DNA of 64,000 nt from Nakazawaea peltata (Eukaryota > Ascomycota > Pichiomycetes > Alaninales > Pachysolenaceae), in assembly GCA_001599355.1 (NCBI GenBank), contig BCGQ01000007.1, forward strand, positions 4,620 to 68,619, in the 5' to 3' direction. Shown piece by piece: positions 25,080-60,519 of this stretch (position 1 is its first letter; the number at the start of each line of letters is the position of its first letter). The notes beneath the pieces are model-generated. The model did no database searches, had not been told where the DNA came from, and saw only the letters and a list, made by a program, of their open reading frames with translations. The translations under genes were made by a program, and so were the position numbers.

Positions 25080-26711
25080 ATGGATATACTAAAAGATACT
25101 TTTAAGGGCACTATTCTGGTAAGTCAAACGATTTTTCATCGTATTTTCATCATACTAACTCTTGTGTAGGGCTTTAAGTTGGCTCTGCCGAACATAATTC
25201 ACTCATATGTGTATACTCCAGTGGGGTGTATATTGGTATTGATGTTATTATACGGGGTCAATGAGGTCATTAAGATCACTACGATTAATTTCCCCCTGTC
25301 AGTGTGTCTCATGTTAATCAATTTTGGGTTTTTATTGCTTAGTTCCAAAGTGATAGGTCGTCAGAAGACCTCTCAATATGTGATAAAATATATCGAGATT
25401 CCTCTGGGGTTTTCGTTAAGATGGATCAATATTTTCTTCACTCCGTCATTCGTGACATTACCTTTGAGTGATCCAATTACTGCAAAAGAACTGTTTATCA
25501 TCCTGGCTGTCTTTGTCGTGGGGTATATTGTGATGAGTGCATTCATTCTGTACTTCTGCATCATTCTCCAACGTCTGTTGGGGTTGAATAAGAAGGATTA
25601 TATGGACCAAGTAGCCACCCCATCTCCTTCTCCTTCAATGTCATCCCTAACATCCCTGGCACAGGATCAGGAATCTGAGTTGCAACGTGAAATTGAAATG
25701 GATCTTTTAGCGGAACCATCTAAGCTGTTGACCCATCCAAAGGATATCGATATCGAGGTTCTTGTCGAAAGAGAAGAGGAAGAGAACCGTGAAATGGCCA
25801 AACAATTAGCCAAAGAGTTACCTGATAGATCTAAAGCAGTGTCGATCTTTGTTTCGACACATTTCGACTGGATCCCATACTTTGTATTGTTCATCGTGGG
25901 GATTCCAATATACTTTGCATGCAACTATGCGTTGCCTTTACAATTGGCCATTGGTATCTTGTGGTTCAAGGTACTGATGTTAATTAGTGCTAAATGGAGA
26001 CGTTTTCTTCACCCGATCTTAGTCTCGGTTTGTGTCGTATTGTTGACGTACTACCTTTTCGTTCTCATGAAGAGAGCCGATTTCATGGAAATGTTACGAG
26101 ACTATAAAACAGGTCGTAACTATTTGTACTTATTCACAACATCCAAAACAACCAAATGGCCAGGGGCTGGTGATGTATTGAGTTCGATGATGGATATCAG
26201 TATCGTTTCGTTATCGTTACCAATGTATCAATATCGTGAAGATTTGAAACGCCACTTTTTCGTCTTGATTCCTCCCGTATTGGTCTGTTCATTTGCAAGT
26301 TTCTTCCTGTACCCTCCTCTTTGTTATCATATTGGTATTTCGAGTGCTCGGTCTCTTGGATTCGTCGGTAGATCTGTTACGTTACTGTTGGGAACCCCCT
26401 TGGTGAACTCATTGGACGGTTCCGTCCCCTTAATGGCCGTGTGTACGATCGTATCAGGAATTTTAGGAGTCTTGTGCGGTGAACAAATGATGGGTAAATA
26501 TTTCTTGCGCATTAAGAAAGATGATTATGTTACAAGAGGAATTACATTGGGGGTCAATTGTGGGGCTATTTCTACACTGCATTTATTGAATGTTGATCCT
26601 CGTGCTCTGGCGATGTCAAGTTTGAGTTTTGTTATATTTGGAACTATCATGGTGATAATGGCAGCGATCACTCCATTAGCAAGGATTATTCAATCATGGG
26701 TGAATTTATGA
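25080..26711 (+). CDS. LrgA/LrgB-type membrane protein (PLGG1-like), one intron
   Basis: Exons are 25080-25118 and 25170-26711, giving 526 residues. The 51-nt intron has GTAAGT, TACTAAC and GTGTAG signals. It joins ATG-led MDILKDTFKGTIL to GFKLALPNIIHSY; otherwise the frame would have to open at a TTG. The protein has an N-terminal membrane block (about residues 20-150), a charged cytosolic loop (about 150-240), and a C-terminal membrane block. That last block carries LGTPLVNSLDGSVPLMAVCTIVSGILGVLCGEQ and GITLGVNCGAISTLHLLNVDPRALAMSSLSFVIFG, matching the LrgB half. The arrangement is that of plant PLGG1, a plastid glycolate/glycerate transporter. The fungal substrate is unknown. S. cerevisiae lacks an obvious ortholog. 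A TATA stretch lies near 25017-25026. Confidence 0.82.
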
Positions 26712-27277: not shown

Positions 27278-28210
27278 ATGTCTTCTACTCCAGCTATTCC
27301 ACAATTCACCATTGGTGACTACGGTGCTTTTGCCTTGGCCGGTGCTATCGGTTGTGGTGTCACCCACGGTTCCATGACTCCAATCGATGTCGTCAAGACC
27401 AGAATCCAATTGGAGCCAACTGTCTACAACAAGGGTATGATCGGTTCTTTCAAGCAAATCATTGCCGCTGAGGGTGCCGGTGCTTTGGCCACTGGTTTGG
27501 GTCCTACTATCCTTGGTTACTCCATGCAAGGTGCTTTCAAGTTCGGTGGTTACGAATTATTCAAGAAGACTTTCATTGACTTCTTAGGTTTCGAGACCGC
27601 TCAAAACTACAAGAACTCTGTTTACATTGGTTCTGCCGCTATTGCTGAATTCTTTGCTGATATTGCTTTGTGTCCATTGGAGGCCACCAGAATTAGATTG
27701 GTCTCTCAACCAACTTTTGCTAACGGTTTGATCGGTGGTTTCTCTAGAATCTTGAAGGAGGAGGGTGTCGGATCTTTCTACAACGGTTTCACCCCAATCT
27801 TGTTCAAGCAAATTCCATATAACATTGCTAAGTTCTTGACCTACGAAATTGCTGCCGATGCCATCTACGGTCTGATCCCAACTCCAAAGGACCAATTGTC
27901 TACCTCCATGAACACTGTTGTCAACTTAGGTGCCGGTGTTATCGCTGGTTGTGCTGCCGCTTTCGTTTCTCAACCAGCCGACACTTTGTTGTCCAAGGTT
28001 AACAAGACCAAGAAGGCTCCAGGTCAATCCACCCTTGGTTTGTTGGCCCAATTGGCTGGTGAATTAGGTGTTAAGGGTTCCTTCGCCGGTTTGCCAACCA
28101 GATTGGTCATGGTCGGTACCTTGACTTCCTTGCAATTCACCATCTACGGTTCCTTGAAGCAAGCCTTGAACTGTCCAAAGGCTATCGAATTAGGTTCCGG
28201 TGGTCACTAA
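27278..28210 (+). CDS. MIR1: Mitochondrial phosphate carrier
   Basis: A 310-residue mitochondrial carrier of the inner membrane that brings phosphate into the matrix for ATP synthesis. Three repeats are visible, each with a P-x-[DE]-x-x-[KR] signature: [11 protein letters not shown] (about residue 47), [14 protein letters not shown] (about 132), and [21 protein letters not shown] (about 235). That last block, and [24 protein letters not shown] near the end, are diagnostic of Mir1 rather than other carriers. The C-terminus GSGGH matches too. Strong codon bias and only one CTG codon indicate high expression. Complete, no intron. Confidence 0.96.
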
Positions 28211-28309: not shown

Positions 28310-28966
28310 TTATACAGCTGGGAATGGAGGATTTGGGTCTCCCAGAGACTTATCCTCTTGGAAATAACTATCTAATTCGGCATCCAATTCTTCTGCAGTC
28401 TTCTTCTTAATAGGTTGCTTTTTCTTTGGTGCCTTGGTCTGCGCAGCTGATAATCTTTGCAGTAATGGGTTAGGTCCAGAAGAAACGGCTGGGGCTCTAC
28501 CATTTACTTCTCTTACCGATATCACTTCTCCAGCAGCACGACGTCCATCAAATTTATCAATCGCCAGCTTATCACATTCATCCAGATCAACATATCCAAT
28601 GTATGCAACACCTTTACTGTTACCGCTGGTGTCGATGATCAAACGACAGAAACGTACTTCTCCGATCTGTTGGAATAACAGATTAATATCCAGTTCGGAA
28701 ATCTCCGGACTCAAATGTGTGACTTTCAAGCATGGTTCTCCACCACTCAATTCTTCGATTTCTTTACTGAGGAATTCTCTTCTTGGGGCATCAAACTCGC
28801 GTCTCCGCCCATTAAATCCATTCCCGCCTCTTCTTCTTTCTCTTCTTCTTGGTCCGCTGTTCTTAGAAACACCTCCTTTTGGTCCACTTGGACGTGACAG
28901 TCTTCCGTCTCTTGGTCTTGATCCAATGATCTCATCCAATGACTTATCCAACAATGATTCTGACAT
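28310..28966 (-). CDS. YRA1: mRNA export adaptor of the Yra1/ALYREF (REF) family
   Basis: A 218-residue nuclear RNA-binding protein. The N-terminal LLDKSLDEIIGSR is the helical UAP56/Sub2-binding motif. An Arg/Gly-rich segment (about residues 20-60) precedes one RRM (about 77-152; CLKVTHLSPEISELDINLLF as RNP2 region, GVAYIGYV as RNP1). A basic linker leads to KKKTAEELDAELDSYF, the C-terminal Sub2-binding FoP motif. All three parts define REF proteins. It is intronless here, whereas S. cerevisiae YRA1 carries a large intron used for autoregulation, so control must differ. YRA2 is an alternative name. Tail-to-tail with MIR1. Confidence 0.88.
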   Translation of the reverse strand: MSESLLDKSLDEIIGSRPRDGRLSRPSGPKGGVSKNSGPRRRERRRGGNGFNGRRREFDAPRREFLSKEIEELSGGEPCLKVTHLSPEISELDINLLFQQIGEVRFCRLIIDTSGNSKGVAYIGYVDLDECDKLAIDKFDGRRAAGEVISVREVNGRAPAVSSGPNPLLQRLSAAQTKAPKKKQPIKKKTAEELDAELDSYFQEDKSLGDPNPPFPAV

Positions 28967-31211: not shown

Positions 31212-31818
31212 ATGTTCAGCCAATCCATCAGAATTGCTACTAGAAGTGCCAGATTGGCCAACAGAAGAACATATGCCGATGCTGCTGTCTCGGATGTCTT
31301 GAAGTTGTCTTTGACTTTACCACACGAGGTGAGTACCGTGGATCAATAGGAGTTATTTAGACAAGATCAATTACTAACTTTAGCGTGAATTAGTCTCCAA
31401 TTGTCAACCAAGAAGTGTAAGTAGAGCTTCGGCGCCGTTTTTTCCAAGTGTAAAAAGCTTTGTTACTAACCTTATAAACAGTACTCAAGTTAATGTCCCA
31501 GCCCAATCCGGTGACATGGGTGTCTTGGCCAACCACGTTCCAACTGTTGAGCAATTGAGACCAGGTATCGTCGAGGTCATTGCTCCATCCGGAACTTCCA
31601 AATACTTTGTTTCCGGTGGTTTCGCTACTGTTCAACCAAACAACACCTTGTCCATCAATGCCATTGAAGCTTACACCACTGACTCCTTCTCTCCAGAGGC
31701 TATCAAGTCTCAATTGACCGAGGCTCAAAAGAACATCTCCTCTGCGGATGAGGCTACTGCTGCTGAAGCTTCTATTCAAGTTGAGGTTTTGGAAGCTTTG
31801 TTGGAGGCCACCAAATAA
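31212..31818 (+). CDS. ATP16: Mitochondrial F1-ATP synthase delta subunit, two introns and a 23-nt exon
   Basis: Exons are 31212-31328, 31394-31416 (23 nt) and 31482-31818, giving 158 residues. Both introns are 65 nt, with GTGAGT/GTAAGT donors, TACTAAC branch points and TAG/CAG acceptors. In intron 1 the acceptor must be the second AG after the branch point. The first AG would give an unrelated peptide, while the second gives LPHE-SPIVNQE-VTQVNVPAQSG, which aligns with the family. A basic presequence (MFSQSIRIATRSARLANRR) ends at TYADA. GVLANHVPTVEQLRPGIVEV is diagnostic for the delta (bacterial epsilon) beta-sandwich, followed by the C-terminal helices. The subunit forms part of the rotor stalk. 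Confidence 0.93.
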
Positions 31819-32194
31819 ACATAACATCAAATAAAGAAAAGTCATGATTCAAGGGATGTTAAGTTTTAACGATATTAAAATAGTAAAAGAATGATTACAT
31901 TTTAGGATATATTGTAGAGATATGTAGATATGGTTTGTGAGTTGTAGGCTCGTGGACCTAGAGGTCAATTAAACTATCTTAAATCGAGTCTAAGTCAGGC
32001 ATAAATCAGGCCCAAACTGACTTGATATAAACAGGGGCTGTCTAAAGGGAATTGTTGATATTTCCTGATTTAGACATTTAGAGGTGGTATAATTCTTTTT
32101 CTCATTTAGGAAACTCAAGGGCTGCAGAATATCCATTTAAATCTTCAAATTCAATCTAATCCTCGATATTTAACGATTATTCAACCCAACCCAG
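31819..32194. other. Intergenic region, no gene seen
   Basis: The ATP16 3' flank and MED2 promoter, 376 bp, AT-rich. It has short GGTCAATTAAAC and CAGGC repeats around 31960-32010. No RNA or gene recognised. Confidence 0.4.
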
Positions 32195-33202
32195 ATGGAT
32201 GAAAACTTGAAAAACTCGTTCGATAACGTACTCATATCAACTGGTAATGTGATAGAGTACTTATCTGGATTGAAATCCCGGAATTTGGTCGTGCCTAATA
32301 ACAGACTAGACGCTAATAATAGTCCACGGTATAACGGATTAGTCTCGACGCTAGACGCCGATTTGAAACAGTACCACCTGGTCTTGGATGAGTTCATTTT
32401 GGACTTCAATTACACAGAGAAGCTGTTGCAGCAGTTGAAAGAGAAATGGGTGGTGGAAGACGAGAATCTGGCCAAATTGAAGTTGGAAAATGAGGAGAAA
32501 CTGAAACTGGACCTGATGGTACAGCAATCTCAACCGGTATCGGACCAACTGCTGTCGGTACAACAGGCGTCCTCGGAGCCTGTGCAATCACAACTGAATC
32601 AGACCCCACTGGAGCTCAAACAAGATTCGGATTCTCTTGGTTTGAACGGTCCTGGGTTACAAATGGATATCGATAACGATTCTTATTTGAGTCAGTTCTT
32701 AGAAGGAGGAATGGATGTGGATGATAATACTGGATTAATTGATCTTGGAGGTGATGGGGCTGACAGTATGTTTGGTAATGATGGTTCTTCTCAGCAGGGT
32801 GGTAGTAATACGGCTGGGTCTAATGTTGATGTGAATAAGAATCCTGCTGATATTTTGTATGGAGATATTTCTAATAGTACGAATGGTGGTGAAATGGGTG
32901 GTGCTGGGGCTGGAGGAAATAACACTGGTGGAGTTTCTGGAGCTTCTGGGGCTTCTGGATCCTCTGGAACTCAGGGACTCTCTGCACAAGATTCTGTTGC
33001 TGCTCCTTCGGCTCCAGTTAATAACCTTGATGCCTCAAAACAATCAGCCAACCCAGAAGATATCAATCTCGACGACCTCGAACAATTATTGGCAAGCACA
33101 AACGACATGAACGACAGTATGGTGTACGACTCCAACGGAATGCCTGTTGATGATAACAACATCTTTGACGAATTGAACTACTTCTTAGGAGGAAATGAAT
33201 GA
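32195..33202 (+). CDS. MED2: Mediator tail subunit Med2 (TLO family)
   Basis: A 335-residue protein whose first ~100 residues align by eye with the Med2 domain of Candida TLO proteins: ENLKNSFDNVLISTGNVIEYL, then NNRLDANNSPRYNGLVSTLDADLKQYHLVLDEF and a charged helix. The remainder is low-complexity (Gln, Asn, Gly, Ser, Asp rich) with acidic hydrophobic stretches (SYLSQFLEGGMDVDD, DINLDDLEQLLASTND, NIFDELNYFLGG), typical of an activation-type tail. Med2 sits in the Mediator tail with Med3 and Med15 and contacts activators. It is single in this window, unlike the subtelomeric TLO expansions of C. albicans. Its stop codon is 14 bp from that of AFG2 on the other strand. Confidence 0.78.
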   Translation: MDENLKNSFDNVLISTGNVIEYLSGLKSRNLVVPNNRLDANNSPRYNGLVSTLDADLKQYHLVLDEFILDFNYTEKLLQQLKEKWVVEDENLAKLKLENEEKLKLDLMVQQSQPVSDQLLSVQQASSEPVQSQLNQTPLELKQDSDSLGLNGPGLQMDIDNDSYLSQFLEGGMDVDDNTGLIDLGGDGADSMFGNDGSSQQGGSNTAGSNVDVNKNPADILYGDISNSTNGGEMGGAGAGGNNTGGVSGASGASGSSGTQGLSAQDSVAAPSAPVNNLDASKQSANPEDINLDDLEQLLASTNDMNDSMVYDSNGMPVDDNNIFDELNYFLGGNE

Positions 33203-33216: not shown

Positions 33217-35547
33217 TTATATAGTGATGCCACTTTTCATGGCAAATTCTTTGTAATATAAAAGCATATCTTCGGTGATACCTTTACTTAAACCGGCCAA
33301 AGCGTGTTCGAAATGACGCTCATGGACTTGTGTAGCATCATTATCTTCCATAATCAGGGCCAAACCCAGTTCTTGGGCCAATAACGAGACTTCAGCACCT
33401 GAACAACCTTCGGTAAGTTCGGCATAAACTCGAAGATCCAATTCTAATTGGAATTTACTACAGGTTTTGGTGAGAATTTGTAATCTCAGGTCGAAATCTG
33501 GTGGCAGAACGTATAAATGACGATCCAATCTACCAGGCCTCAAGAGCAGCGGGTCGATAGTGTCCGGCCTATTAGTCAGGGCTACAACAACTACCCCATT
33601 CAACTCTTCTACACCGTCTATCTCATTAAGTAAGGTGGTCAATACCTGGTTGGAGGTATGAGAAGAGTCTCCATCTCTAGACTGGGAGATTGCGTCGATT
33701 TCATCGAAGAAAATGATCGAGGGCAGCAGCAGACGGGCCTTATGGAAGATCTCTCTTATAGATTTCTCCGACTCTCCCACATATTTATTGAAGATTTCCG
33801 GTCCTTTGACTGCTAAGAAATTGAGTCCGGACTCCGTAGCTAACAGTTTAGCTGTTAAGGTCTTAGAACAACCAGGAGGTCCATAGAGTAATAAACCTTT
33901 TGGAGCTTTAATTCCTAAACGTTTAAAAGTATCAGCCAGTTCTAATGGCAATTGTACCATTTCTCTCAATTTTTGTTTCAATTCTTCTTGACCTCCGATA
34001 TCATCCCAATGCACTTTTGGCATTTCCAAGAATATCTCTCTCATGGCAGAAGGTCTGATATCGAGTAAAGCCAGTTCTACGTCGGCTAACGTTACGAGCA
34101 TCTCCTGGTTTCTTTGGATCGTTTTTAATACACTTTCTCTACAAAGAGCAATAAGATCTGCTCCTACATATCCATGGGTCTTAGAAGCTACGTTGGCAAT
34201 CTCCAGGTCGGTGAGAACTGACTTACCTTTCATCTTCAGGAATTGGATTTCCAATATATGTTGTCTCAGAGCCAGGTCTGGGATTCCAATTTCGATTTCT
34301 TGGTCAAATCTTCCTGGTCTTCTCAACAGAGGATCGATCAGATTAGGTCTGTTGGTCAGAGCAACTACAACTAATCTACCCAGATCGCCCATTCCGTCCA
34401 TAAGAGTCAACAAGGTAGCTACTACTCTACTTTCTACTTCTCCTGCATCATCACTAGCTCTACTTGGGGCCAATGAGTCTATTTCATCGATGAAAATAAT
34501 CGAAGGCTGGTATTTTCTCAGCTCTAAGAAGATATCTCTAATACAACTCTCGGTTTCTCCGAGGTATTTACTTACGATTGAGGGCCCATTAATGGTCAAT
34601 ACATGGGCATTTGCTTCATTCAGAACCAGTCTTAAAAGCATAGTTTTACCAGTTCCGGGTGACCCATGTAAAAGAATACCTCTTGGGGGGGTTATACCAA
34701 ACTGAGTGAAGAGCTCGGAGTTATGTAAGGGTAAATTTACGGCTGATTTGAGGATGGTGATTTCCGAATCGAGACCTCCTAAGGATTTAAAGGAGATTGG
34801 ATGGGGGATACGAGGATATTTCAGCTTGTCGATATCGATTTTCGATACGATTTCTACCTTGGTTTTTCCCCTTTGGAATATGAACAGAGGGGAGATCAAT
34901 GGCTGCAGTTCAGTGACAGGGCTGGAATTTCCAATGGTTAATTTTGCTATTTGGTCTTCTACTGAGTAATTGATGTCTAAAACATGGAATTCGAACTCCT
35001 GTTTGTCCTCTGAGTCACCAATTTTCAATCCACATTGAGGAACACATAACCCTGGGTAAATGATACCAACTTCGTCCATATATTTCTCGATATTAGCCAA
35101 TGGAAATTGGTCACACGATACTGATGAATTGTTTCCCAAAAGAAGAGATTCCAGATATGGTAAATTCAGTGAATCTAACTTCCCAATGGCAATTCTATCA
35201 CCCAAGAGCCAGCCACTTGATTGGCGGAGCAGGTGAGAAATTTGAACCACATCGTAGTCACCATCAGCAGGGTCAAAAGCGGATAAAATTCCCACAATTC
35301 CATCCAATGAGTCTTCTTTACTCAAATAACATAAACTACCATCTTTCAAATCATCTAATTCCAGTAATATTTCGGGGTGAATGAACACCTTCACAAGATT
35401 TTTCAAGTTGAGCTTGGTCGATGGCCGAAGAATAAAGTGCTTTGGGATCTTTATTTTCTTCGCTTTTTTCTCTCTAATAGGTTCCTCTGGCGGAGCCGCC
35501 AGCTTTTTGCTCTTTGAACTCGAGGAAGAAGCAGATTTAGGTGCCAT
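33217..35547 (-). CDS. AFG2: AAA-ATPase Afg2/Drg1, 60S ribosome maturation
   Basis: A 776-residue type II AAA-ATPase that strips Rlp24 from cytoplasmic pre-60S particles. It has an N-domain (about residues 1-245) and two AAA modules. D1 has Walker A HGSPGTGKT, Walker B IIFIDEIDSLAP and RRPGRFDQEIEIGIPD. D2 has LLYGPPGCSKTLTAK (Cys-Ser in the P-loop is characteristic of Afg2), IIFFDEIDAISQSRD and LLRPGRLDRHLYVLPPD. CTG codons occupy at least ten positions that are Ala in essentially all orthologs (codons 397, 403, 407, 568, 606-608, 657, 667 and others), the main evidence for CUG-Ala decoding. A 39-bp tandem repeat carrying AGCA-TACGAAT elements lies 70-190 bp upstream. Confidence 0.95.
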   Translation of the reverse strand: MAPKSASSSSSKSKKLAAPPEEPIREKKAKKIKIPKHFILRPSTKLNLKNLVKVFIHPEILLELDDLKDGSLCYLSKEDSLDGIVGILSAFDPADGDYDVVQISHLLRQSSGWLLGDRIAIGKLDSLNLPYLESLLLGNNSSVSCDQFPLANIEKYMDEVGIIYPGLCVPQCGLKIGDSEDKQEFEFHVLDINYSVEDQIAKLTIGNSSPVTELQPLISPLFIFQRGKTKVEIVSKIDIDKLKYPRIPHPISFKSLGGLDSEITILKSAVNLPLHNSELFTQFGITPPRGILLHGSPGTGKTMLLRLVLNEANAHVLTINGPSIVSKYLGETESCIRDIFLELRKYQPSIIFIDEIDSLAPSRASDDAGEVESRVVATLLTLMDGMGDLGRLVVVALTNRPNLIDPLLRRPGRFDQEIEIGIPDLALRQHILEIQFLKMKGKSVLTDLEIANVASKTHGYVGADLIALCRESVLKTIQRNQEMLVTLADVELALLDIRPSAMREIFLEMPKVHWDDIGGQEELKQKLREMVQLPLELADTFKRLGIKAPKGLLLYGPPGCSKTLTAKLLATESGLNFLAVKGPEIFNKYVGESEKSIREIFHKARLLLPSIIFFDEIDAISQSRDGDSSHTSNQVLTTLLNEIDGVEELNGVVVVALTNRPDTIDPLLLRPGRLDRHLYVLPPDFDLRLQILTKTCSKFQLELDLRVYAELTEGCSGAEVSLLAQELGLALIMEDNDATQVHERHFEHALAGLSKGITEDMLLYYKEFAMKSGITI

Positions 35548-36895: not shown

Positions 36896-37900
36896 ATGCT
36901 GCCTGTAGATAATCATTTTGGAGAACCATTGAGTCCTACTTCGAGTGTTGTGACACTGCCAGAAATGGAGGATGAGGTGTATGCTACCTTTTTCCAATCT
37001 GAGCAACACATTACTTATCCATTGAGGTATAAGGTGTCGCTCTCGCTTTCTGATAGGGAGGTGGGATTGATCCGAGAGAGTTGGAAACTCATTTTGACCG
37101 ATTCCAAAGCTGCTCAAAAGAACATTGCACAGAACACTTTCAGTTCACAGACTTTCAGTTCGTCGTTGTTCTGCCATCAATTCTATGAGAATATTTTGGA
37201 GCTGCGGCCTGATTTGATCGAGATGTTCCCAAGTATCAAACATCAACTGGTATCATTTGCTGGCATTATGAACATCACTATCAATAATTTGGAGAATTTG
37301 TCGGTACTAGACAGTGTGTTGGAGCATTTGGGTCGTACTCATTCTCGTATCTTGGGCATTGAAGCTCCATTTTTCGAGCTCATGGGGGACTCTTTGATTA
37401 AGACCTTACAAGATAGATATGTCAACTCGATGATCGATTTTACGTTGGAGTTGGAGAATTGTTGGATCAAATTATACTGTTTCTTACTGAATTCTATCCT
37501 CCAATGTGGCATTGACCCTATTCTCAGCTTTGAGAAGCCTCTGCCTCTGCCTATCACACCAAATATCTTTGCCAATCATAAACTGAGACAGCCCTCAGAT
37601 GCTTCCAGTATCAATACAAGCCCAGAGACCTTGTTTGACAATATCCAGGACAAGAGGGCTAGCAGGACTAGCGTCTCGACTCGTAACAGTTCTATTTCTT
37701 CTGCTGTCTTGAACAAGCCAATGCCGTCTCTTCCTCCTCAGCAAATTTCGACTGAATCTCTGGGTCTGTCGGCCCTTGAGTCGGCCAAGAGGGGTTTGAG
37801 GACCTTTGGTAACAAGAGTCAGAGGACTAGATTAGGTACTAAATTAAAGAAGGTCAGCAAGAAGGTCGACGATGATGACGACGGCTGTGTTATAATGTAA
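36896..37900 (+). CDS. Globin-domain protein with polybasic tail and C-terminal CaaX box (CVIM)
   Basis: A 334-residue relative of yeast YNL234W-type globins. The globin fold spans about residues 45-225. LRPDLIEMFPSIKHQLVSFAG gives the CD-corner Phe and a distal-position His. LEHLGRTHSRILGIEAPFFELMG gives the proximal His. A Ser-rich linker follows. The C-terminus has a basic stretch (KSQRTRLGTKLKKVSKKV), five Asp, then Gly and CVIM at the stop codon (37888-37900, TGT GTT ATA ATG TAA). CVIM is a canonical farnesylation box (as in K-Ras4B), and the neighbouring basic residues would strengthen membrane binding. YNL234W-type globins are heme proteins thought to act in redox or oxygen signalling. 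Lipid anchoring is inferred from the motif. Confidence 0.85.
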   Translation: MLPVDNHFGEPLSPTSSVVTLPEMEDEVYATFFQSEQHITYPLRYKVSLSLSDREVGLIRESWKLILTDSKAAQKNIAQNTFSSQTFSSSLFCHQFYENILELRPDLIEMFPSIKHQLVSFAGIMNITINNLENLSVLDSVLEHLGRTHSRILGIEAPFFELMGDSLIKTLQDRYVNSMIDFTLELENCWIKLYCFLLNSILQCGIDPILSFEKPLPLPITPNIFANHKLRQPSDASSINTSPETLFDNIQDKRASRTSVSTRNSSISSAVLNKPMPSLPPQQISTESLGLSALESAKRGLRTFGNKSQRTRLGTKLKKVSKKVDDDDDGCVIM

Positions 37901-37938: not shown

Positions 37939-40176
37939 TTATATATTATCGGGGATGAGATTGGAGTCCCAAGTTACAAACTGTTCTGCTAGGTGACTGA
38001 GAGTGTCTGGGGAGAGTTGTTCTGACGACTCATTCGAGCCATAGAGGAAAGGTAAGATTTTAGCCATGACTTCGTCGTTATTTACTTTGAGATCATCCAT
38101 GTCTGGGAAGTCTAGGGTATTTTGGGGGGTTATTTGGGGTGGATGAGAGTTATTAGGTGGTTGCAGTTGGTCTGAGCTTACCAGATCGCGAACAGAGTTG
38201 GTTTTCTTCGACTCAATCTTAGATTTCAACCTATCTAAATACTCTAAACGACGTTCATTGTGTTGCAGAGTGAAATTTCCGGCCTCACTCATGAATTGCA
38301 TCAAATTACGACCTACACGGAGTTCAGGAAGCTCTTCTCGTCCAAGACTTGCCATGGTCAAGATGAGAATAGCACTAAAACACCACTGAGAGTCCCAAAA
38401 TCCAAATTTAGAGAGCCAATTCAGGTCCTGTAAATGCTTTAAAATTACGATATTGGTTCTAGCCAGTTCAAGACACTTCAGAGTGGTCTCATGGGTCTTC
38501 TTGGTCTCTTTAGCTACCTTCTGGAAGAGTGAGAGGACTAGAGGACGCACGGTGAGGATGACCACCTGGTTGATACGGAGAAACAAGTTGGCGATACTAC
38601 GACCTTGGCTGGTTTGGAGCAGGTCTTTGAGGCTGAAGGGGAGCTTCTTTTGGAGCAGTTCCAAATCCAGAAGACATTCCAAAGTCAGATCCACAAAGTT
38701 TCTGAGCACCTGAGGGGGTCTATATAATTGGGACATTACTTTACTTAAGATTATGGAGAGTTGGACGTTACAAGTCAGAAGTTGGCAGTTATAACTGTCA
38801 CCTAGTGGGATAAAATGTTGGTTGGGCAACTCTATATCGATGTCGTCGATATTTACGTGGAGAGGCTGGCCCAATTTGGAAGCCCAGATACTTTCCATAC
38901 AGAAACAGGTCCACCAGACTCTTTTACGTTTCTCATTTTCTACATCTGTGGAAGATCCGAGAATTTTAGGGGTGGTTGGGGGTCTCCATTTGCGATGTAG
39001 ACCCATTACGAGGGAGGATCTCAACAGAAGACCGAAGAATGAGTAAACTGTGTGGGTTCTATTGAGTCCTTGGCAGTAAAATCCGATTAAAATCAAGGTT
39101 TGAATGAATCTCAAGTTGGGTTCCTCATAATAATTACGGAATAACTGCATTGCAGGAGTGAAGAACCTCATTCCTGGAACGTTGGGAGATAATTTTTGGA
39201 ATCTATTTAAGTACTGTTCTCCTATCAGTAAAGTTACTAAGAAATAACAGGTCCATTGGGAACTTTTGCCCAGTAGATCATTGTACAGTTCGTCTATTTC
39301 GGTGTAAAATTCAGCCGGGTCAAAGAGATAGTACTCGGCACCCAAGAACTCGATCACTTCTTTCACCAACATGAGCAGATACTTTTTATCTGGGAATAGT
39401 ACTAGACCATTGACGGAGCAATTGACGGAAGGATCATGTAAGAAATATCTATCGAAATGTTCATCGTATTCTTGGGGGTTGTCGGGTGGTATGGCCATAG
39501 GAGAGGTAGTTGAGCCGGCAGCAGAGGGTGCCGCAGATGATTCAGATGCTTTTTCAGCTCCTCCTCCTCTCGGGCTCAGTTCTGTCAAATCTTCACCCAT
39601 TGATGAACCTTTGACAGACCCAGATGCCTTAATTGTCATATTCATCAATACAGAGTTAAGTGCATTATCAAACACCTCACAAGACAGAGCTCCATAATAA
39701 TTATCTGGATCTTGGTGGACCGTCGATACCAAGGGGTTAGTGCCCGATGGTTCGGGCAATGGTGTGCCTGAAGTCGATCCTGACTTACTTGGGAGCGCAG
39801 TATCCGAATCTGCTTGACTTTGAGGTCTGTCTAATGTTTTTGAAGCTTCCTCTTGATCATTCCCAGACGACAATCTCAGACATTCTCTCTCCAAAAAAGC
39901 CAACCTGCTATGAACTCGGTTGAGTTGTGACTCTAATATCACAACTTTCCGATCCCTCATAGGATATTCACATTCTGAATCATTATTTGCACAACTATCA
40001 CATCGTGGTTGTCCTGATCTGTGTGTTAGTAATCAAGGGTCTAAGAGCCAACGTCTAAATAACTCACCTCCAGAGCATTTGATCTTATGATTTCGACATC
40101 TCAAACAGGCGAGATGAGATCGTCCTTGGGACTTGAATCGGATCGGTTCGATCCTGAAACTCGTATTCTTCTGCAT
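37939..40176 (-). CDS. Zn2Cys6 zinc-cluster transcription factor (3), one intron
   Basis: Exons are 40176-40068 and 40013-37939, giving 727 residues. The 54-nt intron (GTGAGT, TACTAAC, acceptor CAG at 40014) lies inside the zinc-cluster coding region. The second AG after the branch point is the one that keeps frame. Spliced, the cluster is C24-LR-C27-x6-C34-x6-C41-DS-C44-x6-C51, followed by a coiled coil (VVILESQLNRVHSRLAFLE) for dimerisation. A fungal transcription factor middle domain spans about residues 200-560, with the typical GLLLRSSLVMGLHRKW and RKRVWWTCFCMESIWASKLGQPL blocks. It resembles the Gal4/Cat8/Put3-type group. It is upstream neighbour of the hydroxyacid dehydrogenase, racemase and hydantoinase genes, so a pathway-specific regulator is plausible but unproven. 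Confidence 0.88.
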
Positions 40177-40367: not shown

Positions 40368-41423
40368 TTATTTTTCAGAGAGAAGCTCTGTGTTGACGAG
40401 GGTGGGTGGGACTCCTGAACCGTAGAAATACTCTACTAAGTTTTTGACACATTTTCTTTCGAATTCCATGAAAGTCTCTCTGGTGGAAGGGCCTGCATGA
40501 GGAGTCAATGTTATTCTGTAGTTGTCTAGTAATTTCTGATGGATCTTTGGCTCGAATTCATGGACGTCGAAACCGGCACCCACCAATTGGCCACGTTCCA
40601 AGGCGTCGATGACAGCAGCTTCTTCTACAATTGGACCTCTAGCAATATTAACCAATCTGACCCGATCTTTCATGTGTTTGAATCTCTCTTTATTGATTAA
40701 GTGGGTTGTTTGCTTGTTATGAGGACAAGCGACTAAAATACAGTCTGTAACTTTCAACATTTCGTTCAAGTCATCATAATAAGTCAGTCCACCTTCGATT
40801 TGGGCCTCAGCCTCAGGCTTCCGAGATCTGTTATGATAAACAATATCCATCCCCAATACTTTACAAGACTTGGCAATGCGGACACCAATGTTTCCCAATC
40901 CGATCACCCCCAAAGTTTTCCCATTTGGGTTATTACCCCAATGAGGGATTCTCTGTGACTCATAGTAATCTCCCGATCTTACACAGTGCTCAGCAAAAGT
41001 CAAATATCTGAAGGCAGACAAGACCAAGTACAACCCGACGTCTGCAGTAGCAATGGTACAACTGTCAGGGGTATTACAGAACATGATTCCTCTGGAGGTC
41101 AAATATTCAACATCGACGATGTCGTAGCCGTGCCCTGATTGGACGATGATCTTGACCGAGTCTGGGAGATGTCTGACAGGTTCACCTCTGAAAAGGTAAT
41201 GGTGAATATAAGGTTTGCTCTTCAACCAAATGGATTTACAAATGGCCTCGATCCCTGCGAAACGACCATCTTCCTTCTGGATCTCTTCGATGAATTCTTC
41301 CTCTGTAGCACAGTCGTAGAGGATGACCTCGAACTTTTCATTCAATTCTTTCCACAGCTCTTCGTCGTGGATTGGCTCATCCCACGGGATATACAAAATC
41401 TTAGGCTTGCTGGTCACGGTCAT
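40368..41423 (-). CDS. D-isomer-specific 2-hydroxyacid dehydrogenase (glyoxylate/hydroxypyruvate reductase type)
   Basis: A 351-residue NAD(P)-dependent oxidoreductase that interconverts 2-oxoacids and D-2-hydroxyacids. The Rossmann motif is GKTLGVIGLGNIGVRIA (about residues 168-184). The catalytic set is visible: Arg in LVNIARGPIVEE, Glu in HEFEP, and His in TPHAGPSTRE. The N-terminal catalytic half carries QSGHGYDIVDVEYLTSRGI. It resembles fungal GOR1/YPL113C-like enzymes; substrate cannot be fixed from sequence. It is on the same strand as, and 152 bp downstream of, the racemase gene, and next to a zinc-cluster regulator. A role in handling 2-oxoacids derived from amino acids is a guess from context. 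Confidence 0.9.
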   Translation of the reverse strand: MTVTSKPKILYIPWDEPIHDEELWKELNEKFEVILYDCATEEEFIEEIQKEDGRFAGIEAICKSIWLKSKPYIHHYLFRGEPVRHLPDSVKIIVQSGHGYDIVDVEYLTSRGIMFCNTPDSCTIATADVGLYLVLSAFRYLTFAEHCVRSGDYYESQRIPHWGNNPNGKTLGVIGLGNIGVRIAKSCKVLGMDIVYHNRSRKPEAEAQIEGGLTYYDDLNEMLKVTDCILVACPHNKQTTHLINKERFKHMKDRVRLVNIARGPIVEEAAVIDALERGQLVGAGFDVHEFEPKIHQKLLDNYRITLTPHAGPSTRETFMEFERKCVKNLVEYFYGSGVPPTLVNTELLSEK

Positions 41424-41575
41424 ACTGTTCTCTGGCTCTCTATAATCGTATTAGCCGTTCTATGTCTCGATATATATCTACAAGGAAATATGGAATAAAA
41501 AGTCCGAGGGTGAAAAAGTATTTTTTCTTTATCAGTAGCTGAGTCATATCAAATGTTACATAAAAAAATGAGTAT

Positions 41576-42382
41576 TTAGAGATAGGTTTGGGAGCGGAGC
41601 ATTCTTGAATCTTTGGAGCTGGAGAATGGACCTCGTTTGGATGTTTTGAGATTTGATCTGAGGATCCCACTGAGCAAATTGACACCTGCTACGACTCCAT
41701 CCACCACTTGTACACCTCCAGATTCGACTGCTTGTTCGACGGCTTCTTTCATATCGCTCATCCCGGCGCACCCAAGCACCAATACATCTGCGTCGTGTTT
41801 TTCTACCAATTCTAGGGCGATTTCAGCCATACGAGAAAGTACTATTGGTCTTGGCTTTGATTCTAACTCTCCCACTGTAAATCCTGTGGAGAGAAGCCCA
41901 GCACAATGTGTGGTCAATCCCATTGCATCGATGGCATTTTTGTGCCTTATCTGAGACCTATATAATGTAGCAATGATCCCGAAACGACCTCCTAATATAC
42001 GGGCTGTATAAATACCTGCTTCCATGATCCCACAGGTAGGTTTATCAAACTCTTCTCTGATACAATTGGTGAGTGGATGATCACTGAAACAGGCCACTAA
42101 CACTGCATCTACCTCTTCTATATATTTGTAAGCGTCTCTGATAGCCAGAGCAGCAGAAAGAACCCCATCCAAATGACCTTCGATAGTTTTAGGAGCAGGC
42201 TCTGGTGTCGTATAACCATATACTACGGTATCTACTGGCAAATGCTGCTCCACCATCTTGAGGCAGTTGACTGTGAATGAGTCCGAGTTGTTCGGATTCA
42301 ATACAAGCACTTTATATAATTTTTCTGGTGGTATATCTTTAGCATATGGACTTTTGACACAATTGAGTTCATCCAACCCCAT
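41576..42382 (-). CDS. DCG1: Asp/Glu/hydantoin racemase family protein, Dcg1-like
   Basis: A 268-residue cofactor-independent racemase-family protein. The two catalytic Cys are present: C98 in VLVACFSDHP and C205 in VLVLGCAGM. NPNNS near residue 30 is the N-terminal family motif. Relatives are bacterial hydantoin racemase (interconverts D- and L-5-substituted hydantoins) and yeast Dcg1, a nitrogen-repressed gene adjacent to the allantoin cluster in S. cerevisiae. Here it is divergent from a dihydropyrimidinase/hydantoinase over 201 bp with three GATAAG sites, which strengthens a link to cyclic-ureide nitrogen use. The enzymatic substrate of fungal Dcg1 is not established. TATATA at 42431-42436 may serve it. 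Confidence 0.9.
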   Translation of the reverse strand: MGLDELNCVKSPYAKDIPPEKLYKVLVLNPNNSDSFTVNCLKMVEQHLPVDTVVYGYTTPEPAPKTIEGHLDGVLSAALAIRDAYKYIEEVDAVLVACFSDHPLTNCIREEFDKPTCGIMEAGIYTARILGGRFGIIATLYRSQIRHKNAIDAMGLTTHCAGLLSTGFTVGELESKPRPIVLSRMAEIALELVEKHDADVLVLGCAGMSDMKEAVEQAVESGGVQVVDGVVAGVNLLSGILRSNLKTSKRGPFSSSKDSRMLRSQTYL

Positions 42383-42430
42383 TTTTGGCTCTACCCCTCG
42401 AAAATTAAGTTTGTGTCAGATCTCTTCCTC

Positions 42431-42545
42431 TATATACCTTCTGGCGCTTAGATATGCCGGTCCGAGGCTTATCGCGATGCTTATCGGAGCGCATGCCGGA
42501 TTTTTTTTCATAGATTCCCGATAAGGTTATAAATAGGAGGGGAGG
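42431..42545. promoter_or_regulatory. Divergent racemase/hydantoinase promoter with three GATAAG and paired CGG sites
   Basis: CTTATC (GATAAG on minus) occurs at 42468-42473 and 42480-42485, and GATAAG at 42530-42535. These are the sites of nitrogen GATA factors (Gln3/Gat1/Dal80). ATGCCGG occurs at 42454-42460 and 42493-42499, and CGG triplets at 42485-42487 and 42497-42499 are spaced by 9 nt, as zinc-cluster proteins often prefer. TATA boxes face both ways: TATATA at 42431-42436 and TATAAATA at 42538-42545. Confidence 0.65.
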
Positions 42546-42583
42546 AGGTCTTGAAGTCAGATTAGAGAAGGAGTAGGGTGAGA

Positions 42584-44077
42584 ATGACGGCAGATTTTGA
42601 GTTGGTGATTTACAATGGGAGAATTGTCTCGGCAAGTGACATATTGTCCCCCTCTCTTTACATTGGAATTAACAATGGGATTATCGAGTCGATATCGGTG
42701 AAGCCTTTGACAGGTGACAGGATGATTGATGCCGAGGGTGGGTATATTACCCCTGGAGGCATTGACTCACATGTCCATTTGTCACAGCCAAATGCTCCTA
42801 CGGGTGACAATTTCGAGAGTGGTTCGAGATCTCTGATCGGTGGAGGAACCACTACTATCATTCTGTTCGCTATCCAGAAGAAGAAGGAATACGACATCAT
42901 TAGTACTGTGGCAGATTACCACGGAGTATCTCGAGAGCAGAGTTATTGTGATTATGGATTCCATGTTATTATTGCTGACCCAACTGAGGAAGTATTAGAA
43001 AAGCAATTACCCGTTCTTTTGAAAGAAGAGGGTATTACCTCTGTAAAAGTATATACTACATATCCTAATTATAAGTTAAACGATCTGCAGATGTTGGATA
43101 TCTTGTTAGCCAACAGGAAACTCGGAGTGACGACGATGATACATGCTGAAAACTCGGATATTATAGATTTTATAAATGACAAGTTGAACAAGAAGAAGTT
43201 GACAGATCCATTTTACCATTCTGTGAGCAGGCCATTAGAGGCAGAAGATGAGGCATCATATAGGGTGATTTCTTTATCTAAATTGATAGATGTCCCTATC
43301 TTAATTGTGCATATGTCGGCCACATCTGCGTTGGAGCATGTAAGAACCGCTCAAACAGACTTAGTACCTGTTTATGCCGAAACATGTCCTCAATACTTGT
43401 TTTTGACAGCTGATCACTTAAAACATAACTGTTGTCATCATTTAAATCACGATGATCATTTTGAGGGAGCAAAGTTTATTTGCTCTCCACCTTTAAGACA
43501 AGATCCTCTGGAATTAGAAGGGGTATGGAAAGCGATTCAAAACGGAACAGTTACCGTATTCAGTTCAGATCATGCTCCTTCGAAATATGATCACCCAATG
43601 GGTAAAAAGAAAGGTTTAGTAAACGGTATTCCTCACTATTCTCAAGTTCCAAATGGACTTCCTGGGTTAGAAACTAGACTTCCATTATTGTTCTGTTATG
43701 GTGTTGAGAAAGGTCGAATCACCCCTCAACGATTTGTAGAATTGGCTTCGACTAATGCTGCTAAATTATACGGGCTTGCCGACCGTAAAGGTACTATAGG
43801 TGTGGGCTATGATGCTGATATCACAATTTGGTATCCTCTGGGAAAAATGGAACCTTTCAAACTTACAAACTCGATGCTCCATCACGATATAGATTACACA
43901 CCTTTCGAAGGCATGGAATTCACCAACTGGCCAAGATATACTATCTTAAGAGGAAAGGTGGTATATGACAGAGACAATGGCGAGATTGTTGGATCTAAAG
44001 GATACGGATCATATCTCAAGCGTGGTGCTTCTGAACTTGCTGGTTCTCTCAATAAAATCAATCCAATCTTTGATTAA
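42584..44077 (+). CDS. PYD2: Dihydropyrimidinase / hydantoinase (Pyd2 family)
   Basis: The start is the ATG at 42584, because the longer frame opens with GTG; this gives 497 residues. It is a zinc amidohydrolase that opens cyclic ureides (dihydrouracil, dihydrothymine, 5-substituted hydantoins). All metal ligands are present: H63 and H65 in DSHVHL, the carboxylated K155 in SVKVYTTYP, H187 in MIHAEN, H243 in VHMS and D329 in SSDHAP. YCDYGFH, YAETCPQY, FICSPPLR, GLPGLETRLPLLF and WPRYTILRGKVVY match Lachancea-type Pyd2 closely and distinguish it from allantoinase. Carbamoyl-amino acid hydrolase, the next enzyme, is not in the window. The promoter has GATAAG sites, suggesting nitrogen catabolite control. 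Confidence 0.92.
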   Translation: MTADFELVIYNGRIVSASDILSPSLYIGINNGIIESISVKPLTGDRMIDAEGGYITPGGIDSHVHLSQPNAPTGDNFESGSRSLIGGGTTTIILFAIQKKKEYDIISTVADYHGVSREQSYCDYGFHVIIADPTEEVLEKQLPVLLKEEGITSVKVYTTYPNYKLNDLQMLDILLANRKLGVTTMIHAENSDIIDFINDKLNKKKLTDPFYHSVSRPLEAEDEASYRVISLSKLIDVPILIVHMSATSALEHVRTAQTDLVPVYAETCPQYLFLTADHLKHNCCHHLNHDDHFEGAKFICSPPLRQDPLELEGVWKAIQNGTVTVFSSDHAPSKYDHPMGKKKGLVNGIPHYSQVPNGLPGLETRLPLLFCYGVEKGRITPQRFVELASTNAAKLYGLADRKGTIGVGYDADITIWYPLGKMEPFKLTNSMLHHDIDYTPFEGMEFTNWPRYTILRGKVVYDRDNGEIVGSKGYGSYLKRGASELAGSLNKINPIFD

Positions 44078-44269: not shown

Positions 44270-47200
44270 ATGGCGAAATCCAAGGGAAAGACGCCTCCAG
44301 CGTCATCTTCGGCTGATTCTGCGAAGAAAGGCAAGAAAGGAAAGGCAGAAAGCCCGCTGCCTGAAGTGAAAAAGGGCAAGAAGGGCAAACAAACCGAGGA
44401 TCCGCCAGCTGGGGGGCTCGATAAACTGGCCAGAGCCAAAGGACGTGCAGCTGTGGCGGAAACAACAAGTTGGACAGGTAAATTACCCGGATCATTGCTT
44501 CATGAACATTGTCAGAAACAGAAATGGGACAAAGTCGTCTACGACATGATGAAGACCAAGGACGGGTTCGTGGGGATCCTGCATTTGTCGTGGAAAAACC
44601 CTAAAACTCAGGAAGTGCTCGAGGTAAAGATGGTGCCTGAAAAATCGGTCGTGCATGGACAAGAGACGCCCCTCGAGGCCAGACATTATGCAGCGACTTA
44701 TGCACTCCATCGCTTGGCTTCTGATAAAAATATTCACATGGTATTACCAGCTAACCACAAGGCTCTTTGGAGTGATTTAGAGATCTTTCGTAAGAAATTG
44801 AAAAACACTAACCCGGCCAAATGTCTGGAATTGTATAATCCTAATCCGTTCACCTATATTCTTGAGAAGAGAAAGGAGGATCTGCGGAAACTGAAGGAGA
44901 GAGAGGCCCAGCTGGTGCAGGACCTGAAGGTGAAGAAAGAAGCTACTAATTTGCTCACCAAGAGTCATCTGTCGGAAATAATTCTGACCAAGAAGAAGAC
45001 CCGGGAGCTGGTTTCCTCATCGCTGGGGTCCAAAACCAAGGCCTCATACCAAAAAACAACTACATTCCCTCGTAAAGTATGGGAATCTGCTGCATTCATC
45101 GATTTGAAACCCCAGTCGAGGGATTTAATCTCCAAATCGATAAAATCCCATATCGCTTGGACTACTCATAAGGTATCTGATGGTGCCAATGAGGGTCCAG
45201 ACTATAAAGACTTTGTAATTTCGTTAGGATTTAGACTTTCTCATATAGAAGAAGCTTTGAAGTACACAAATAATTTCACAGACACTTTGGAATGGTTGAT
45301 CTTCCATTTACCGGAAGACGACCTTCCTCCTATCTTCACCAAACGTCTGGACGAATCGAATCTCTCATTGAAGTTGACTGGAGATTTGAAGAGAGAGTAT
45401 ATATTCCGTAGATTAGTAAATGCTGGTTTCAACGACAGTGATATTACTGCCACCTTACTTAAATATGATTTCGATGAGATCTCAGCCTCGATTAGTCTTT
45501 GTTATGAGTTGATCAATTACGACACATCAGATGTCGCTGAGATCACTCTGGAGGAATCTCAAGAGATTTGGGACTCCGAATATGGCAGTTTGAATGTTAT
45601 ATACGAGGGAAGAGTGACCAAAACTGATAATTGTATATATGATATCAAATTAAATCCTCATAATTTGGAGCTGGGAATCTTAAGTTTGAGGGTCCTCAAA
45701 CCTCAGCATTATCCTAACTCTCTTCCTGGATTGCAATTGCTTGTGGTCGATAAATCTTATAAAGTAGCTAATTATATCCGATTGTCGATTATCAAACGGT
45801 TGATGCATTATATTTTGGACGGTGGGCTCTTGGGAGACTCTTTCATCTTCTCGTGTGTAGATTGGCTTGAGACAGAGATCCATAAGATCATCGAAGATCC
45901 TGGGCCATTGTTCACTGAGACCGAACAACTTGAGAAGCTGACTCAAACTGTCCAAGAGAAGAAAGAGAAGCGGTCAAAGGTATCAAGGACGAAGAAATTG
46001 ACTCAAAGTGACATCGATGCCCTTGCTTCGTACTATAAAAGTTTATACAGTAAGCCTGAGTTGAAACGATCCCTTCAGCAAAGATCGGCACTTCCTGCTT
46101 GGAAGAAGAAAGAGCAGATTGTAGATTTAATTGCGTCCAATAGAGTGACTTTAGTCACTGGTGAGACTGGTTCTGGTAAATCGACTCAAGTTGTCCAGTT
46201 CATTCTTGATAACTTGGTTGAGAGGGGTGAGTACGGTTCCGGAATCATCTGTACTCAACCTAGACGTATTTCTGCTATTGGTTTGGCCGAAAGAGTAGCT
46301 GAAGAACGTTGCACTCAATGTGGTCTGGAAGTAGGTTATATAATCAGAGGTGAGAACAAGACATCTGCCAAGACCCGAATCTCTTTCGTAACTACAGGTG
46401 TCTTGCTTCGTATGGTCCAAGGATTGCTCTCAAGCAGCAGTGCCGAGGACTCTTTCTTCAGTAATTTAGGCTACATTTTCATCGATGAAGTCCATGAAAG
46501 ATCTATTGATAGTGATTTCTTATTGATTATTTTGAAAAGAATTATCTCCAAATTCCCCAAATTGAAGATCGTCTTGATGTCGGCCACTACCGATGTCAAT
46601 GTGTTCCGTGACTACTTCCCTCAGGGATTGGCCCATATTCACATCGAAGGTCGTACCTTCCCTATTCAGGATTATTATTTGGATGAGATTTTGCAAGAGG
46701 TTGATTTCAAAATTGAGGACAGAAGATACAGAAGATATGCCGATGATGATGACGATGAGGAGATGCTGGGAGATGCTGAGGATGGTATCATCAGGCCAAA
46801 AGCCAACTCCAAGTTCTTCCAAGATGGAAATATTAATTATGATTTGATATCTTCTGTGGTAAATCACGTTCATCAAAGGTTGATCAATGAGAATAACAAG
46901 GGATCGCTTTTGATCTTCTTGCCTGGTGTTCAAGAGATCAATTCTTGTATCAAGAACATCTCCAAGTCGTTTAGTGGTCGTTCATTGTTACTCCCATTGC
47001 ACTCTGCTTTGTCTTCGAATGACCAGAAGAAAGTCTTCGTAACCCCTCCAGTAGGAGTCCGTAAAATAGTCGTCTCGACTAATGTAGCAGAAACTTCGAT
47101 CACCATTCCTGATGCTGTATGTGTCATTGATTGTGGTCGTTCAAAGAATTTGTACTATGATCCAAAGGTGAACACCACCAGACTTTTGGAGAAATGGTGT

Positions 47201-50900: not shown

Positions 50901-51675
50901 ATGGTAAGCTAGATAAGAAAGTGTATTAAGGTATCTAGATGTACTAACAATGCAGAATCCGCAAGATGAAATGAAAATAAAAGAGTTAAGGACCCTGACT
51001 GGACTCGGTAGGAATGAGGCGATGGAGCTCTTAACAATAACAGGACAGGAGGTGTATCTGTCGATCAATATTCATTACCAAGAGACTCTCGGTGTAGAAT
51101 TGGAAGGACTTCAAGATTTATGGTACCAATATTGTGATGAAGATAACAAAGGTCAAATTGGAATTGACGGGACCTTGAAATACATCGAAGATTTGGGTTA
51201 TCAGCCTGAAGATTCGGTCGTGCTCGCTTTACTGGCGCACTTGAAGAGTCCTTCGACAGGGATTTTCAATCAAAAGGATTTCCTCACGGTATGGGGGAGT
51301 GAAAATATTCAGACATTGCCTCAAATGTCTCTGAAAATGCAGCAATTTGATCATGCCATGAAGACCGATCTGAATTTTATGCAACAAATATATAATTTTA
51401 CGTTTGAATATGTGTTAGAACCCGGACAGCGCAGTTTGAATCCGGAAACTGCAGTCGATTACTGGAGTTTATTACTCCCAATTCAATTTGAAGAATCAAA
51501 AGTAACGGCTTGGACCAGTTTCATCTCAGCGAACCACAATTATGCCATCTCCAAGGATCAATGGCAGATGACCTTCGAATTCATGAAATGGTGGTCTACC
51601 CATCAATTATCCGACTACGACGAAAACCTGGCCTGGCCATCCCTCATCGACTCCTTCGTAGAGTCCTCCTTCTAA
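50901..51675 (+). CDS. DCN1: Cullin neddylation E3 Dcn1, intron directly after the ATG
   Basis: The preferred model is exon 1 at 50901-50903 (the ATG alone) and exon 2 at 50956-51675, giving 240 residues. The 52-nt intron has GTAAGC, TACTAAC (50942-50948) and TGCAG. Unspliced, the first ATG would read only Met-Val-Ser-stop. A second ATG at 50950 inside the intron would give nearly the same protein (MQNPQ instead of MNPQ). The N-terminal UBA-like segment (about residues 5-45) is followed by the potentiating-neddylation (PONY/DAD) domain (about 50-235), with LWYQYCDEDNKGQIGIDG, DYWSLLLP and WQMTFEFMKWWS. Dcn1 brings Ubc12-Nedd8/Rub1 to cullins. Its partner gene here, APC2, is itself a cullin family member. 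Confidence 0.88.
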
Positions 51676-54684: not shown

Positions 54685-55277
54685 ATAGAAATGGATAGAC
54701 CAGTAATGTTAGGTGATGTAGATAAGTGATCTGGAGAGGTGATCTGGAGAGGTGATCTGGAGAGGTGATCTGGAGAGGTAATGTAGACAAGTAATGTAGA
54801 TAGGTACTTTAGATAGTTTTTTTGGAGTGAGAAGAACTGAATAAGTTCTTATTTGAATTTCAAAATTGATAGAAATGAGATATATATGATATATTTGGAG
54901 TGAGCAAAAAGAGAGTATGAAATAGATGATATTGATGGGATAACATCAGTTGATAGTGGCCAGAGACTCCATTCAAGACAGAGACAGAAATTGGAAGGTA
55001 TTAGATAACTCTCAATTGGGATCATTCCCCTTTGCTTGTACCTGTCTGCTTCCTATTCTTGATCACCCCCAATTTCCCCCTCCAAACCGTACACAGCAAA
55101 TTATGAAAAAACATAAAAACAAATAGCAAATTACAAATAATCCATAAATACCAAATATCAGCATAATACGAAAAAGGAATCGTCGGAAATCAAAATTTCG
55201 TATTTGGCTCACACAAATTATTCACTTTACTAATCACCATCAAAGAGATCAGTGGGGGATAAATCAAGTCTGGCACT
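54685..55277. other. Intergenic region between DIP2 and SSY1
   Basis: Contains the 13-bp minisatellite, the 16-bp TGATCACCCCCAATTT half-palindrome (55060-55075), and three AGCA-type elements (55095, 55125 and 55160, the last reading AGCATAATACGAA) within 185 bp of the SSY1 ATG. Confidence 0.5.
54727..54778. repeat. 13-bp tandem repeat, four copies
   Basis: GTGATCTGGAGAG is repeated four times without interruption, followed by degenerate GTAATGTAGA-type units to about 54810. It begins 43 bp after the DIP2 stop. A simple minisatellite. Confidence 0.85.
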
Positions 55278-60356: not shown

Positions 60357-60519
60357 TTCCTGCCAGTGGTCAATTTCAAAGAAATCAACCCCGGCACCAA
60401 ATTATTCCAAAAATAAATGTAACAGTTATAAATTACCGTCGCTTGGACGGTATTTCAGTTGTTACACTGAAAAGAACAGATACTACACTTGATCTAAGCC
60501 AAAAGGCAAAGAGATTGGT
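60357..60519 (-). ncRNA. LSR1: U2 spliceosomal snRNA, compact form (~163 nt)
   Basis: The minus strand begins ACCAATCTCTTTGCC and continues through GCCTTTTGGCTTAGATCAAG and the branch-point recognition GTAGTA (revcomp of TACTAC at 60481-60486). Next comes TCTGTTCTTTTCAGTGTAAC, which is near-identical to U2 across eukaryotes. Stem IIa is ACCGTCC/GGACGGT-like (60434-60450). An Sm site ATTTATTTTTGG lies at 60408-60419. A long stem-loop (TGCCGGGGTTGATTTC paired with GAAATTGACCACTGGCA, 60361-60396) closes the 3' end. The 3' boundary is inferred from that stem. S. cerevisiae U2 is 1175 nt, so this is a short, vertebrate-length form. A TATA box (TATAAAAAG, minus) is at 60556-60564. Confidence 0.93.

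Follow-up and report, generated by a model that had tools for sequence, protein, structure and literature searches.

CTG behaves as an alanine codon in the conserved genes of a 64-kb yeast DNA segment, as in the known CUG-Ala code

How the codon CTG is read is the question raised by the AFG2/Drg1 AAA-ATPase gene at 33217–35547 (− strand), an ORF of 776 aa that contains 31 CTGs, several of them within conserved ATPase motifs. A first-pass annotation had proposed, from thirteen sites in AFG2, SNF4 and DIP2, that CTG encodes alanine here. We followed up this proposal over the window, by which we mean the whole 64-kb stretch of DNA that was analysed (40.9% G+C), where 25 ORFs with a Pfam match carry 318 in-frame CTGs. 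These 25, Pfam-matched with CTG read as Ala, were left from 29 listed ORFs after 12227–12688, 12827–13402 and 34043–34705, each overlapping a longer ORF on the opposite strand, and 31390–31845, which has no CTG, had been dropped.

All thirteen named codons are indeed CTG and in frame in their ORFs, with strand and coordinates correctly reported. The residue opposite them in the yeast orthologue is Ala at ten and Ser at three (34339–34341; 33730–33732, the first of a triplet; and 61617–61619), and the latter three, being Ser in yeast, are on their own no evidence for Ala against Ser. For AFG2, the annotation had described its sites as Ala in nearly all AAA-ATPases. Among prokaryotic loci this holds for five of them, all on the − strand: VVVA-x-TNRP of ATPase domain 1 (34357–34359; Ala in 98% of 77 loci), IDP-x-LRRPGR (34327–34329; 77 of 77), TAK-x-LATES (33844–33846; 97% of 79), VVVA-x-TNRP of ATPase domain 2 (33577–33579; 90% of 75) and DP-x-LLRPGR (33547–33549; 84% of 75). 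The remaining AFG2 sites are NRPN-x-IDP (34339–34341, −), where the prokaryotic column is split between Ser (36%) and Ala (35% of 77 loci) which, with Ser in yeast, makes the site not diagnostic for Ala, and the three consecutive CTGs in KAR-xxx-PSIIFF (33724–33732, −). At this triplet the yeast orthologue does have SAA, as had been claimed, and the prokaryotic columns show Gln at 57%, Ala at 38% (the largest share) and Ala at 72% of 76 loci. Three of the four sites said to agree in SNF4 and DIP2 are Ala in the orthologue (61536, 61602 and 52135); the fourth, 61617, is Ser there and Pro in a second PDB relative of SNF4, Protein C1556.08c, presumably an S. pombe entry.

The three genes were the choice of the first-pass annotation, and every CTG within them was counted (57, of which 55 face a residue). 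AFG2, DIP2/UTP12 (a WD40 protein; 51862–54684, +; 940 aa, 16 CTGs) and SNF4 (60777–61799, +; 340 aa, 10 CTGs) were aligned to PDB sequences after translation with CTG masked as X, which keeps the alignment neutral as to the residue at these sites. Their best matches were ATPase family gene 2 protein (7nku; 899.6 bits), U3 small nucleolar RNA-associated protein 12 and Nuclear protein SNF4 respectively, all of which we take to be S. cerevisiae entries. The 31 CTG columns of AFG2 held 16 Ala, 6 Ser and no Leu in the yeast orthologue, and the 15 aligned CTGs of DIP2 (residue 171 faces a gap) 7 Ala, 1 Ser and again no Leu; in SNF4, where residue 4 lies outside the alignment, the remaining nine faced 4 Ala, 3 Ser, 1 Thr and 1 Leu. 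This tabulation against orthologue columns, a three-gene version of the genome-wide check that the first-pass annotation had suggested, came out in favour of its claim, with Ala at 27 of the 55 sites, Ser at 10, Thr, Val and Glu at 3 each, Pro and Gly at 2 each, and Asn, Arg, Lys, Tyr and Leu at one each.

Controls from the same three genes put these counts in proportion. Other Leu codons faced Leu at 151 of 232 sites (CTT, CTC and CTA pooled, at 34 of 53), compared with one of 55 for CTG (Fisher p = 6.5e-20). GCN codons faced Ala at 51 of 91 sites, a proportion from which CTG does not differ (p = 0.49), and real Ser codons faced Ser at 87 of 173, well above the 10 of 55 found for CTG (p = 2e-5), so that CTG does not behave as expected of a CUG-Ser code. 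Ser was somewhat commoner opposite CTG than opposite GCN (9 of 91), although not significantly (p = 0.20). The pattern over the 55 sites is far beyond chance.

Distant homologues told the same story for AFG2. Its CTG columns were set against 80 AAA-ATPase loci from archaea and bacteria, of which many, though not all, are Cdc48-like, and 23 of the 31 columns, those with at least 30 loci, were scored: 11 were mostly Ala, two mostly Arg, one each mostly Gly, Val, Gln and Pro, and six had no majority, while none was mostly Leu and none mostly Ser. The Ala fraction was 0.50 at CTG and 0.50 at GCN, and other Leu codons had a Leu fraction of 0.42; these values carry a slight bias, because CTG was taken as Ala when the prokaryotic loci were ranked. 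A similar comparison was made for an amino-acid permease (55278–57647, +; 789 aa, 38 CTGs) against 24 bacterial loci, among which the pairs L096/L105 and L093/L102 each represent one gene counted twice. Among the 28 permease CTG columns scored (those with at least eight loci) five were mostly Ala, four Gly, two Thr, two Ser and one each Asp, Asn, Val, Cys, Pro and Ile, the rest lacking a majority; none was mostly Leu. The Leu fraction was 0.06 at CTG versus 0.32 at other Leu codons, and the Ala fraction 0.25 versus 0.33 at GCN. The sole PDB relative of the permease is a lysine permease, in which, by eye, a residue stands opposite 28 of the 38 CTGs; nine of these residues are Ala and one is Leu. 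Because the permease homologues are distant, their signal speaks against Leu more than for Ala. Across both families none of the 51 scored columns was mostly Leu, and by eye from the column lists 13 were at least 80% Ala and one at least 80% Ser. For DCN1, SDS22 and APC2, again by eye and using the top PDB match only, 12 of 19 CTGs lay opposite a residue, which was Ala three times, Ser and Arg twice each, Gly, Ile, Glu, Thr and Lys once each, and never Leu; these proteins are weakly conserved at their CTG sites, and the count speaks against Leu and only weakly for Ala.

The comparison was extended to profile scores, with 34 chosen Pfam domains in 20 proteins (one domain per region, overlapping weaker families uncounted, and five further ORFs outside the scoring) evaluated under three readings of CTG. 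The summed scores were 3965.0 bits with CTG as Ala, 3861.5 as Ser and 3797.0 as Leu. Ala beat Leu in 25 domains, tied in one and lost in eight, by at most 1.2 bits (DEAD 1.2, CBS 1.1, FAD_binding_8 0.8 and five domains 0.1); against Ser it won in 24, tied in three and lost in seven, by at most 0.6 bits. Relative to Leu, the Ala reading gained most in AA_permease (+34.0 bits; 301.4, 286.0 and 267.4 bits as Ala, Ser and Leu), AAA (+23.6) and Zip (+19.9), and the permease and Zip genes lie outside those chosen by the first-pass annotation. The ZIP transporter ORF (58484–59638, +; 11 CTGs) scored 219.5, 210.8 and 199.6 bits as Ala, Ser and Leu, an LrgB-domain membrane protein (25242–26711, +; 13 CTGs) 126.5, 124.9 and 116.1, and Amidohydro_1 in a dihydropyrimidinase/D-hydantoinase (42584–44077, +; 5 CTGs) 95.2, 92.8 and 87.5. 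In a DHX29-like DEAH helicase (44270–48529, +; 1419 aa, 19 CTGs), DSRM_DHX29 gave 175.7, 174.3 and 170.1 bits in the same order, and the six other counted domains hardly discriminated. Of the 103.5-bit lead of Ala over Ser, 27.8 bits come from LRR_4 in SDS22 alone. Among the uncounted overlapping families, some WD40 families favour Ser, the strongest case being Beta-prop_WDR36-Utp21_1st in DIP2 (126.8 bits as Ala, 133.4 as Ser and 127.1 as Leu).

We also scored each codon in AFG2, DIP2 and SNF4 with the substitution spectrum of each amino acid. At CTG the Ala spectrum beat the Ser spectrum by 33 nats. The scan covered the 52 sense codons with at least eight aligned sites, nine others, including CTA and GCG, falling below this threshold. 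Forty-eight of the 52 agreed with the standard code, CTT, CTC, TTA and TTG coming out as Leu, and the four misses were CTG, ATG, TGG and TGT. The last three fail because too few sister codons, or none, remain to train on once they are left out, so that a lack of training data accounts for every deviation but CTG. A five-component mixture fitted at CTG gave Ala 0.86, Ser 0.13 (bootstrap 0–0.36) and Leu 0 (0–0.014), with no support for a Leu share. The fit measures the evolution of sites, not rates of translation, and is therefore blind to rare misreading; moreover, its GCN control (Ala 1.0) reused the data on which the Ala component had been trained and hence is not a fair, independent baseline. 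The claim of the first-pass annotation is thus borne out by yeast orthologue columns, prokaryotic AAA columns, Pfam scores and the codon scan alike: in the well-conserved genes of the window, CTG acts as an ordinary alanine codon.

If the standard code applied and CUG were Leu, the CTGs at Ala sites would have to be there by chance or through the picking of sites by eye. The first-pass sites and genes were indeed picked in this way, and Leu does score marginally above Ala in the eight domains noted above. However, once every one of the 57 CTGs in these genes is taken into account, Leu appears at a single aligned site; no scored prokaryotic column is mostly Leu, and the Leu reading costs AA_permease 34.0 bits, AAA 23.6 and Zip 19.9, so that we regard this reading as having practically no chance of being right. 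A serine code, as in the CUG-Ser1 or Ser2 yeasts (table 12), comes nearer to the data, in that Ser ranks second both among the residues at CTG columns and by Pfam sum, with a few of the uncounted overlapping WD40 families scoring best as Ser. It nonetheless falls short of Ala by 33 nats in the scan and by 103.5 Pfam bits over the 34 domains, CTG differs markedly from real Ser codons, and prokaryotic columns of at least 80% Ala outnumber those of at least 80% Ser by 13 to 1 as judged by eye; serine is thus a highly improbable reading.

CUG could instead be ambiguous, read mostly as Ala with a minor share of Ser, owing to two competing CAG tRNAs or to imperfect charging. The Ser component of the mixture fit is what such ambiguity would produce, yet its interval includes 0, the excess of Ser over GCN is not significant, the substitution history of the sites yields the same signal without mistranslation, and the GCN control provides no fair baseline for it. 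We consider ambiguity of this kind very unlikely. A relative of SNF4 was also sought among viral contigs, as stray fungal DNA, and none of the eight pattern matches was a relative. The reading that we favour is that the window comes from the nuclear genome of a budding yeast with the CUG-Ala code (NCBI table 26), most likely of the Alaninales, in which an Ala-derived tRNA-CAG would read CUG, and we hold this with high confidence. There is a small chance that the yeast lies outside the known Alaninales and acquired CUG as Ala independently, or that it still decodes CUG as Ala with a minor share of Ser.

Under the CUG-Ala code, CUG would be read by a tRNA with a CAG anticodon descended from an alanine tRNA, and this tRNA would be charged by alanyl-tRNA synthetase, an enzyme that does not depend on particular anticodon bases; the ancestral tRNA-Leu(CAG) would have been lost. 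G3:U70 is a general alanine identity rule for tRNA. A search of the 64-kb window with ARAGORN, and with Rfam at the gathering threshold, found no tRNA and only the U2 snRNA, and that such a tRNA reads CUG, how it is charged and to which clade the yeast belongs are inferences from the literature. In Krassowski et al. 2018 (PMC5951914), the Ala clade comprises Pachysolen, Nakazawaea and Peterozyma, the same three genera that the first-pass annotation had named, and its novel CAG tRNA arose when one gene of the tRNA-Ala family underwent a mutation of its anticodon. NCBI taxonomy places all three genera in the order Alaninales. The CUG-Ala code is not new but has been recognised in a single small group of yeasts, and since it has been described and has an NCBI table, the discovery value of its recognition here is low. 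The Codetta study (PMC8629427), which covered 462 yeast species, likewise uses CUG-Ala as a known category. In an earlier comparative study (PMC4986446), Pachysolen was put under a serine code, which indicates that a small number of CTGs can lead to confusion between Ala and Ser.

The window resembles the CUG-Ala yeasts (Pachysolen tannophilus, Nakazawaea and Peterozyma) in having CTG on conserved Ala, not Leu, columns, and also in its yeast-like nuclear genes and in the standard meaning of the other testable codons. The same codon has been reassigned in other budding yeasts, as PMC5951914 describes for the CUG-Ser1 and CUG-Ser2 codes (table 12; Ascoidea, Saccharomycopsis), but CTG in the window follows Ala, not Ser, columns. 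Leu codons have likewise passed to Ala in a yeast-group fungus in the mitochondria of Ashbya, although there, according to PMC3874161, the codons are CUU and CUA and the genome is mitochondrial, whereas CTT and CTC in the window come out as Leu. Heavy use of CUG offers only a hint, different genes being compared, that the species is not P. tannophilus.

The window holds several other features. A U2 spliceosomal RNA gene (60317–60515, −; Rfam RF00004, 101 bits) lies upstream of SNF4 and could serve as a marker for placing the species. At 40368–44077, adjacent genes encode a 2-hydroxyacid dehydrogenase, an Asp/Glu/hydantoin racemase and the D-hydantoinase/dihydropyrimidinase (TIGR02033, 424.2 bits; cut-off 393.25), adjoined by a fungal transcription factor gene at 37939–39960; the segment looks like a small cluster for hydantoin or dihydropyrimidine use. 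Its interpretation as a yeast nicotinate (hxn) cluster was dropped because HxnM, as described in PMC8478523, has a CE4 deacetylase-like domain and the ORF here is a D-hydantoinase. The LrgB/CidB domain at 25242–26711 (+; PF04172, 126.5 bits with CTG as Ala) is of bacterial type, and a globin domain (PF00042, 43.1 bits) occupies residues 95–199 of the 334 encoded at 36896–37900 (+), which also has a Ser-rich tail. Pfam further identified an RRM protein (28310–28966, −), a Med2-like Mediator subunit (32195–33202, +; 27.8 bits, cut-off 26.8), an APC2-like cullin (48706–50613, −) and a DCN1-like protein (50950–51675, +). The + strand shows a strong skew of G over C, of 0.244 in 52001–56000 and 0.149 in 56001–60000, where several + strand genes lie.

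CTG is in heavy use in the window, at 22.9 per 1000 codons. The Leu reading puts the proteins at 12.7% Leu and 4.9% Ala, the Ala reading at 10.4% Leu and 7.2% Ala. As an Ala codon it is the commonest of five (CTG 318, GCT 301, GCC 218, GCA 116, GCG 43), and its share of Ala codons varies from 0.03 to 0.75 among the 25 ORFs (chi2 109.3, p = 7.4e-13). The lowest share is that of a mitochondrial carrier (27278–28210, +), with one CTG versus 35 GCN codons, and low shares are also found in the racemase (0.05), a dehydrogenase (0.11) and an MFS transporter (0.12); the permease stands at 0.61 and SDS22, with only eight Ala codons, at 0.75. The low shares may reflect avoidance of CUG in well-expressed genes; across the 25 genes, CTG share did not correlate with two crude proxies of codon bias (Spearman −0.14 and 0.05). 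The 318 CTGs of the 25 ORFs are to be read as Ala, as otherwise about 2.3% of residues would be wrong, and the heavy, gene-dependent use of CUG could make this genome a good subject for work on the refilling of conserved sites by a captured codon.
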